This document shows positions 43,019 through 44,385 of a DNA stretch of 64,000 nt, piece by piece. Within the stretch, counting starts at the first letter, position 1. Each line of letters opens with the position of its first letter. Under the pieces are notes generated by a model. The model was not told the DNA's origin, ran no database searches, and worked only from the letters and a program-made list of their open reading frames with translations. The stretch comes from Hyphobacterium sp. CCMP332 (GTDB taxonomy: Bacteria > Pseudomonadota > Alphaproteobacteria > Caulobacterales > Maricaulaceae), in contig NZ_CP058669.1 of NCBI RefSeq assembly GCF_014323565.1, positions 709,501 to 773,500 of the forward strand, given 5' to 3'. Position numbers and translations under genes: made by a program.

Positions 43019-43441
43019 ATGACCACGCAACGCACATTCTCGATCATCAAACCCGACGCCACCGCGCGCAATCTGACCGGCAAGATCAACGCCGTCATCG
43101 AAGGTGCCGGCCTGCGCATCATCGCGCAAAAGCGCATCCACATGAGCAAGGAGCAGGCTGAAGGCTTCTATGGCGTTCACAAGGAACGTCCCTTCTTCAA
43201 CGACCTTGTCAGCTTCATGATCTCCGGCCCGGTCGTCGTGCAGGTGCTCGAAGGTGAGAACGCCATCGCGAAATACCGCGAAGTCATGGGCGCCACCAAC
43301 CCGGAAAATGCCGATGAAGGCACGATCCGCAAGATGTTCGCCGAATCCATCGAAGCCAATTCGGTGCACGGCTCCGACGCCCCGGAAACCGCGGCAGAAG
43401 AAATCAAATTCTTCTTCTCCGACGAAGAAATCGTCGGGTAG
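43019..43441 (+). CDS. ndk: Nucleoside diphosphate kinase
   Basis: 140 residues from the ATG at 43019 ([18 protein letters not shown]), with GGAG upstream; the longer open frame from 42923 is leader. [24 protein letters not shown], and the active-site histidine region [12 protein letters not shown] are classical. It equilibrates NTP and dNTP pools, partnering with gmk and nrdJ here. The inverted repeat bounding the DUF559 gene begins 25 bases past its stop and could serve as terminator. Confidence 0.97.
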
Positions 43442-43465
43442 AGTAGAACGAGCGCTAACCAGATT

Positions 43466-43532
43466 CCCTCTCCCTTGAGGGAGAGGGGGAGGATGGCTTT
43501 CATTCCTGAAAGCCGTCCTCAGGGTGAGGGGG
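43466..43532. repeat. Left inverted repeat flanking the DUF559 gene
   Basis: A perfect nine-base stem CCCTCTCCC/GGGAGAGGG with a TTGA loop (43466-43487), then a 14-base imperfect hairpin (43489-43520) with loop TTCC and one G-T wobble, ending in AGGGTGAGGGGG. The first stem and the terminal AGGGTGAGGGG reappear, inverted, at 43902-43937. The repeat covers the last seven codons of the DUF559 gene. Confidence 0.8.
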
Positions 43533-43880
43533 TTGCTGGACGTGCTGCAACGCTCGCAATGCATCCGCGACCTGGTCATAAACGCCGTCCATGGCTTCAT
43601 GGACGTCAATGTTCCAAAATCGGATCACTGTCCTTCCAGCCGCTTCCAGCTTGAGTGTCCGGGCGTCATCCTCGGCATTTTCGAAATGCTGCCCGCCATC
43701 GACCTCGATGATCAGCTTCACTTCAGAGCAAGCGAATTCAGCGATATGGCCTTCGACGGGTTGCTGCCGCCGGAATTTGAATCCCAGTGGCCGCTCGCGC
43801 AGCATGTTCCACACCTTGCGCTCTGCATGCGTTGCTTCGCGGCGTAGTCGCCGGGCGAGCGGTGTTAGACGTTCAGGCAC
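43500..43880 (-). CDS. DUF559 endonuclease-like protein (Vsr-related fold)
   Basis: 126 residues. LARRLRREATHAERKVWNML, then FKFRRQQPVEGHIAEFACSE, LIIEVDGGQHF and the closing VIRFWNIDVHEAM are the DUF559 signature. These proteins have the PD-(D/E)xK-like fold of very-short-patch-repair nucleases; the Glu and Asp of IIEVDGGQH are the likely metal ligands. Activity of this family is not well established. Unusually, the gene lies inside a pair of inverted repeats, and its 3' end is made of repeat sequence. It is convergent with ndk. Confidence 0.88.
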   Translation of the reverse strand: MPERLTPLARRLRREATHAERKVWNMLRERPLGFKFRRQQPVEGHIAEFACSEVKLIIEVDGGQHFENAEDDARTLKLEAAGRTVIRFWNIDVHEAMDGVYDQVADALRALQHVQQPPHPEDGFQE

Positions 43881-43901
43881 TGGCGAAGGTTATCACAAAG
43901 A

Positions 43902-43937
43902 CCCCTCACCCTAACCTTCTCCCTGAAGGGAGAGGGA
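43902..43937. repeat. Right inverted repeat flanking the DUF559 gene
   Basis: CCCCTCACCCT (43902-43912) followed by a hairpin CTTCTCCC/GGGAGAGG with TGAA loop (43916-43935). Read on the other strand it repeats the outer parts of 43466-43532: the CCCTCTCCC stem and AGGGTGAGGGG, but without the central 14-base hairpin. It lies 22 bases upstream of the DUF559 start. Confidence 0.8.
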
Positions 43938-43965
43938 AATAGCGCCGGGCTTTTTGTTTGCGGGA

Positions 43966-44385
43966 CTAATCCTCCCGTCCCGGTTTGCGCCGCATCGCCT
44001 TTTTCTGCCCCTGCTTGGCCTTGGCCTCCTTGACCTTCCGGATCGACGACAGCGAGGGACGCGAAGCCTTGCGCGGCTTGGGCCGGTGCGAGGCCTTGAG
44101 GATCAGCTCCGCCAGTTTCTGACGCGCCGCCGCGCGGTTGCGCTCCTGCGATCGTGATCCGTCCGCCTCGATCACCAGCACCCCGTCCTTGGTCAGGCGG
44201 CGTCCGGCGACCCGCCTCAGGCGGAATTTGATCTCGGCAGACAGGCTGGGTGAGCTGGCGGCATCAAAGCGCAGCTGCACGGCCGAGGACGTCTTGTTGA
44301 CATGCTGCCCGCCCGGACCGGAGGCGCGCACAAACCGCTCCTCCAGCTCGCTTTCATCGATGAATATGGCGTCGGTGATCTGCAT
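43966..44385 (-). CDS. arfB: Alternative ribosome-rescue factor ArfB (YaeJ)
   Basis: 139 residues. ASGPGGQHVNKTSSAVQLRF holds the catalytic GGQ of class I release factors, here near residue 26, without a codon-recognition domain. A long basic tail (RKVKEAKAKQGQKKAMRRK) would enter the empty mRNA channel. ArfB hydrolyses peptidyl-tRNA on ribosomes stalled without a stop codon. The gene is divergent from the DUF1232 gene across 81 bases. Confidence 0.95.
   Translation of the reverse strand: MQITDAIFIDESELEERFVRASGPGGQHVNKTSSAVQLRFDAASSPSLSAEIKFRLRRVAGRRLTKDGVLVIEADGSRSQERNRAAARQKLAELILKASHRPKPRKASRPSLSSIRKVKEAKAKQGQKKAMRRKPGRED

Follow-up and report, generated by a model that had tools for sequence, protein, structure and literature searches.

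Organization of the locus

Within the 64-kb window, by which we mean the whole stretch of 64,000 nucleotides analysed here from the 2.69-Mb, single-contig genome of Hyphobacterium sp. CCMP332, a DUF559 gene lies on the minus strand (43500-43880) between ndk (43019-43441, plus strand) and arfB (43966-44385, minus strand, from the ORF annotation). The two neighbours are host genes that served as markers of the site, and ndk occurs in one copy in each of 80 relatives. The DUF559 gene encodes a protein of 126 aa of the PD-(D/E)XK type, similar to Vsr and I-Bth0305I (PF04480, E = 4e-32; active-site residues invariant), and is enclosed by two inverted hairpin ends. Together they make up a unit of 477 bp (43464-43940, minus strand), the extent of which was taken from the homology block common to its other copies; the first-pass annotation had come close with about 470 bases. 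The left terminal repeat, at the 3′ side of the gene (43464-43531, plus strand), reads towards the gene as a stem, an inner hairpin and AGGGTGAGGGG. Its outer hairpin stem, CCCTCTCCCTTGAGGGAGAGGG (43466-43487), is perfect (CCCTCTCCCT/AGGGAGAGGG), the inner hairpin (43489-43520) has arms of 14 bp (43489-43502 and 43507-43520), and the G-rich tail AGGGTGAGGGG (43521-43531, plus strand) points into the unit. The last codons of the nuclease gene and its stop fall within this inner hairpin, just as had been claimed on first inspection. The right terminal repeat, at the 5′ side of the gene (43902-43938, minus strand), is an inverted copy without the inner hairpin, with its tail CCCCTCACCCT at 43902-43912 and its stem at 43915-43936. 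Such terminal inverted repeats are also found in insertion sequences and MITEs.

Compared with shuffled sequences, the left end is strongly folded (z -6.4), into a pair of adjacent hairpins, and the right end forms a single hairpin, the fold energy of which is not unusual on its own (z -1.1). In the predicted fold the tail of the right end, GGGTGAGGGG (43902-43938, minus strand), can pair with the CCCTC strand that is used by the outer hairpin, and on this prediction the right end could switch between two folds. The inverted repeat of the locus scores 24; of 1927 placements made at random in the window, 4 matched or exceeded this value. An inverted pair of this kind is thus uncommon at a single locus, borderline and not decisive; it becomes certain because the repeats and the DUF559 units recur in the genome, and this recurrence ruled out a chance origin. 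On the right of the unit, GCGCCGGGCTTTTT (43942-43955, plus strand) is the leftover 3′ arm of the ndk terminator, as recognized by comparison with intact terminators at other loci (L070, L078 and L069); the 5′ arm is missing beside the insertion in the Hyphobacterium genome.

The DUF559 protein belongs to a family of predicted nucleases

The protein scores 110.6 bits against PF04480, for which the curated cut-off is 20.6, and its AF2 model (pLDDT 88) contains a PD-(D/E)XK domain. The closest solved folds are those of gonococcal NGO0050 (Z 16.0), I-Bth0305I (Z 14.6) and Vsr (Z 11.0), with the proviso that the absence of a structural family from this fold list proves nothing. An independent profile search found 3hrl and 3r3p, the latter (I-Bth0305I) with an E of 2e-4. 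Among 86 DUF559 proteins, residues E20, Q39, F49, E59, D61, G62, R74 and R87 are invariant and D48 and H65 nearly so; this conservation fits an active enzyme, as expected, and nuclease activity is inferred from it. E. coli YcjD, which is annotated as DUF559, had earlier been placed in the PD-(D/E)XK superfamily (PMC1189080). For Caulobacter VsrA, another DUF559 protein, DNA damage responses have been described when the cytosine methyltransferase is missing (PMC12907096). We rejected a defence system as an explanation, as the window protein gave only a weak match in PADLOC (E 0.0018).

The gene and its ends are dispersed as one unit

The Hyphobacterium genome contains four DUF559 genes, and three of them (at 286, 753 and 826 kb) share their ends. 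Compared with the window unit, the 826-kb copy is 86% identical over 477 bp and the 286-kb copy 81% over 486 bp. The pairwise identities of the three (86%, 82% and 81% over 477-486 bp) begin and end at the hairpins, and the flanks are not homologous. The fourth gene, at 1661 kb, encodes a more distant protein (46% identity), and its unit has another end sequence in the same layout of hairpin, inner hairpin and G-rich tail. Comparable units were found in relatives. In G031, two units at unrelated sites share 98.8% identity across 672 bp; in both, the gene is enclosed by a composite repeat of ~125 bp, present in direct orientation on either side. In Robiginitomaculum, which is represented among the fetched family relatives by, for instance, R. 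antarcticum (order Maricaulales), three units (two from R. antarcticum, one from a metagenome bin) agree over ~450 bp, and this shared block coincides with the inverted ends. The DUF559 gene and its ends have therefore been dispersed as one unit, and the bracketing proposed from the single locus held, with recurrence in the same genome.

The ends themselves are more numerous than the units. The stem sequence occurs at 9 sites in the Hyphobacterium genome versus 0 in a reversed-pattern control, and AGGGTGAGGGG at 23 sites versus 1. The repeats are not confined to the unit and occur genome-wide. A nuclease-free pair of inward-facing ends is located at 207119-207195, and gene-free outward composites around the shared stem are present at 117468-117581, 235351-235459, 2527079 and other positions. 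The nuclease-free pairs of relatives consist of a long-hairpin and a short-hairpin end, and the distance between the two hardly varies; in G078, for instance, it is repeatedly 19 bp.

Nuclease-free pairs of this kind are similar to MITEs and REPINs, for which mobilization in trans by transposases is the accepted view (PMC3733652; PMC3116915), and the gene and repeats might accordingly be moved by another transposase, a RAYT or IS enzyme, with DUF559 as cargo. We regard this as quite improbable. The sole gene of the unit is DUF559 and an HUH tyrosine (IS200/IS605-type) transposase is absent from it; the tetranucleotide GTAG, the tag of RAYT-linked REPs (PMC3733652), is absent from 43464-43531 and from 43902-43938; and the gene that is repeatedly bracketed is DUF559, with the restriction that the RAYT genes of these genomes were not surveyed. 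Membership in REP/RAYT was itself rejected, as both defining features, the enzyme and the GTAG tag, fail.

Insertion sites in relatives are empty, decayed or gene-free

The ndk-arfB gap of G028 holds no element and has an intact ndk terminator, and the element is also absent downstream of ndk in G005. In the closest sister, G006, only the right hairpin is left at this site, and G003 and G007 carry a nuclease-free pair of the second end type there. The 826-kb site is empty in G003 and occupied in G004 by a nuclease-free pair, with ends similar to the ones on a DUF559 unit of G001; at the 286-kb site, G006 has no element and G005 has a left end on its own. Empty sites, suggested as a check for the ndk-arfB gap, thus exist there and at the other two insertion sites, nuclease-free hairpin copies are present as well and are commoner in genomes with DUF559, and fixation of the gene at this locus in all relatives, which would have refuted the idea, is not seen. 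The gene occurs in several copies and is distributed patchily in closely related genomes. None of the sites tried (the ndk locus, two further loci in the genus, pSymB of S. meliloti and plasmids of Azospirillum) gave a base-exact empty site, because either the flanks are too diverged or the insertion is common to all genomes compared, and five pairs of junctions showed no target-site duplication. The stretch that separates ndk from its terminator contains hairpin elements that differ among species of the genus (L068 and L069, both at 1880-2080), as if the gap were an insertion hot spot.

These distributions bear on a conservative explanation, namely that DUF559 is a resident Vsr-type repair enzyme or a solitary defence nuclease and the hairpins are ordinary terminators or mRNA-stability elements. 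The hairpins do adjoin gene ends, the fold is similar to that of Vsr (Z 11), and Caulobacter VsrA works with a cytosine methyltransferase (PMC12907096). However, the hairpins are mutual inverted copies that travel with the gene as a unit, the same ends stand alone at many places, the gene is neither single-copy nor evenly distributed, and the PADLOC match is weak. The explanation was already weakened by the unit-wise dispersal, and we consider it very improbable; ordinary terminators in particular were rejected as the full story, given that the ends copy each other and move with the gene.

Repeat numbers follow the DUF559 gene

We counted the ends with two end patterns in the 80 relatives, of which 51 are DUF559-positive and 29 negative. 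The first pattern had no reversed-read match in any genome, and the second had some background, mainly in the genus of the window. Positive genomes contain on average 18.9 ends (median 12) versus 2.8 (median 0) in negative ones. This excess holds when two ends are deducted for every gene (p 1e-4), and with the same deduction the number of ends correlates with DUF559 copy number (rho 0.51); the p-values are optimistic because the genomes are related. Of the 12 genera that include both kinds of genome, 9 have more ends in the positives and 2 have fewer. Many copies of the ends (16 to 22) without a detectable DUF559 gene were observed in G011, G030 and G045, possibly as remnants after gene loss or mobilized by something else. 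The finding that had been named in advance as refuting, repeats occurring genome-wide without a tie to DUF559 genes, is strictly speaking not met, as the repeats are genome-wide yet tied to the gene.

Similar nucleases also have similar flanks. At 68 loci of the order, the observed similarity was reached in 0 of 1000 permutations within families and in 3 of 1000 when swapping only within one genome; the former figure could in part reflect flanks that orthologous insertions have in common. Phylum-wide and with a cruder measure of the ends, nuclease and end similarity were uncorrelated (rho 0.04). A phylum-wide co-divergence was not found with that measure, and the nuclease-end link is readable only among closer nucleases.

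The left end furthermore matches the Rfam family RF01762, whalefall-1, over the full model with 25.9 bits (E 1.4e-4), which is below the gathering score of 37. The relatives have 82 such matches in 17 genomes, 16 of them DUF559-positive, and a few, including matches in G067 and G043, surpass the gathering score. A DUF559 domain is situated within 350 bp of 18 of the 82 matches, where 0.09 are expected. Published as a noncoding RNA only in whale-fall metagenomes (PMC2864571), whalefall-1 has a likeness to our ends in the full-length match and the adjacency to DUF559; it differs in having been described as an RNA, whereas here it is a DNA repeat at the ends of an element. This suggests that the Rfam candidate RNA whalefall-1 is a DUF559 element end. 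Rfam matches to mir-3059 and mir-2545 were regarded as chance.

Bracketing repeats recur across bacteria

For a wider sample we combined 60 DUF559 loci of the order with 79 from a phylum-wide search, nearly all of them outside the order, and determined for each locus the highest-scoring repeat shared by its two 250-bp flanks, setting the threshold at the 99th percentile of the controls. In Pseudomonadota, inverted repeats exceeded the threshold for 77 of 139 DUF559 genes versus 7 of 834 control placements, and inverted or direct repeats for 86 of 139 versus 7 of 834 (p 7e-37); ndk, used as a control gene, was bracketed in 0 of 29 cases. DUF559 genes with matching flanking hairpins, which the first-pass annotation had proposed to search for, are thus common, and 53 of the 139 have no bracketing repeats detectable in the 250-bp flanks. 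Among six examples from Deinococcus and cyanobacteria, four have strong inverted repeats and a fifth has a strong direct repeat, and the DUF559 gene of N. gonorrhoeae has direct repeats at its flanks. The DUF559 copies of K. pneumoniae and Azospirillum were not bracketed by flank repeat scoring. The orientation of the ends around the gene varies (inward, outward or direct repeats) and the end sequences differ greatly between units, while the layout of outer hairpin, inner hairpin and G-rich tail persists. The inner hairpin covaries, with 86% paired versus 58% when shuffled and 29-40% when slid. The set for this analysis was hand-picked, some of it from searches with the outer stem fixed, so only the inner hairpin was tested.

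On cyanobacterial plasmids (L334, L330) and in Deinococcus (L331-L333), the bracketing sequences are C-rich/G-rich palindromes, that of Pseudanabaena being CCCCCTAAATCCCCCAATTCTGGGGG, and Deinococcus DUF559 genes lie inside hpa and paa gene clusters. No inverted repeat brackets E. coli ycjD (score 19), and this gene was not counted as support. We also rejected it as a strain-level empty-site polymorphism, as in the strains opened the locus held other genes (efflux; SMI1/KNR4). The sapF-ycjD-fabI region (L318, L325) is covered to at least 80% in 3361 of 5426 E. coli genomes, and BoxC-like palindromes are present downstream of ycjD, a likeness noted without comparison to the consensus. Several plasmid records in PLSDB, among them NZ_CP119142.1, NZ_CP141089.1 and CP125156.1 (L315, L318, L319), are as large as chromosomes (2.2 to 5.4 Mb) and seem to be mislabelled ones.

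A rival reading gives the nuclease no role in mobility. The repeats could spread by other means and DUF559 be moved merely by homologous recombination via the repeats at its flanks. In G031 and N. gonorrhoeae, the gene is enclosed by complete repeats in direct orientation, an arrangement expected from recombination, and the repeats far outnumber the genes and occur in some DUF559-free genomes. Yet repeat counts track the presence and copy number of DUF559, similar nucleases have similar ends even when swaps are restricted to one genome, and unrelated classes and phyla show bracketing too, by ends that are unrelated in sequence. We therefore judge such a passive role of the gene unlikely.

Discussion

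Here, we describe a DUF559 gene between hairpin repeats that is best read as a REP/RAYT-like element, the enzyme of which is a homing-type nuclease and not an HUH transposase. That the unit is a miniature mobile element, a DUF559 endonuclease between palindromic ends that serve as recognition and joining sequences, appears to us probable, with considerable doubt remaining. The observations behind this reading are the architecture, the unit-wise dispersal, the empty sites, the nuclease-free relatives, the association of gene and repeats, the local co-variation of nuclease and ends and the conserved active-site residues. How the element would move is inferred, without biochemistry. DUF559 may recognize the extruded or single-stranded hairpin ends by their stem, inner hairpin and G-rich tail, and may nick or break the DNA there or at a corresponding repeat in another place; the repair machinery of the host, with the repeats providing homology, would then copy the unit or a nuclease-free pair into a new intergenic site. 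The unit would also feed a nuclease-free population of solitary ends and end pairs, and would thus parallel REP/RAYT in its population behaviour and a homing endonuclease in its chemistry. We derive cleavage at hairpins or a matching repeat, followed by copying through repair, from the relationship to a homing endonuclease, the structure-conserved hairpins and the copying to non-allelic places; recognition, cleavage, the copying step and the nuclease as driver are all parts of this inference. The variable end orientation counts against the mobile element, as fixed transposition chemistry would not predict it; in our interpretation, this variability and the lack of visible target duplications suit repair-mediated copying more than classical transposition. 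The link of VsrA to cytosine methylation and DNA damage, not to mobility (PMC12907096), also counts against it. So do the 53 DUF559 genes without detectable bracketing, the missing target-site duplications and base-exact empty sites, the absent phylum-wide correlation in the cruder comparison and the repeat-rich genomes that lack DUF559. Of the compact mobile or selfish module with REP/RAYT-like logic that had been suspected from the sequence, dispersal, empty sites and gene-free copies are borne out, while selfishness and a nuclease that moves the repeats have not been demonstrated.

The intergenic DNA of many bacteria is full of short palindromic repeats, and for few of them, beyond the RAYT-linked ones, is an enzyme known. 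The pairing of gene and hairpins in many bacteria hints at what spreads a large class of these unexplained repeats; a large uncharacterized nuclease family gains a genomic role, and orphan repeats gain a candidate enzyme. It is conceivable, and we propose it only tentatively, that DUF559 units form a new class of mobile elements found in several phyla. In it, a hydrolytic nuclease of the Vsr/homing type would, on its own, recognize hairpin ends and drive not only its own dissemination but also that of a large fraction of the palindromic repeats between bacterial genes, whalefall-1 among them. If the nuclease were shown to drive mobility, the element would be categorically new. The idea is testable with one small protein and a DNA hairpin of 40-60 nt, and laboratory Caulobacter carries DUF559 genes. 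We found no report linking DUF559 to repeats in the open-access literature; preprints and most subscription journals were outside this scope, and the priority of the link is not certain.

Among known systems, the nearest characterized relative of the protein in both profile (E 2e-4) and fold (Z 14.6) is I-Bth0305I (PDB 3r3p). This homing endonuclease is intron-borne and homes to allelic sites (its PDB label is mobile intron protein), whereas DUF559 units are located at non-allelic intergenic sites between hairpin repeats. Vsr and Caulobacter VsrA share the PD-(D/E)XK core (fold Z 11), but Vsr nicks DNA at mismatches, is linked to a methyltransferase and is not known to be mobile. The CGTC REPs, for which no partner transposase has been reported (PMC3733652), E. 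coli BoxC and Rhizobium RIME are similar in being short intergenic palindromes without a known mobilizing enzyme; the CGTC REPs look like a family separate from the DUF559 ends. Repeats of the GTCATCCCTGCGAAAGCAGGGACCCAG type, which resemble CGTC REPs (PMC3733652), occur near DUF559-type ends (L014, L034, central parts). The arrangement also resembles REP/RAYT (REPtron, REPIN), the setting of which we found in a gene bracketed by a repeat that has solitary and paired copies elsewhere in the genome: in both, a small gene lies in palindromic repeats, gene-free copies are solitary or paired and intergenic, and the copy number tracks the gene. The DUF559 units differ in having a PD-(D/E)XK nuclease instead of an HUH tyrosine transposase, and many of their ends consist of two hairpins and a G-rich tail.
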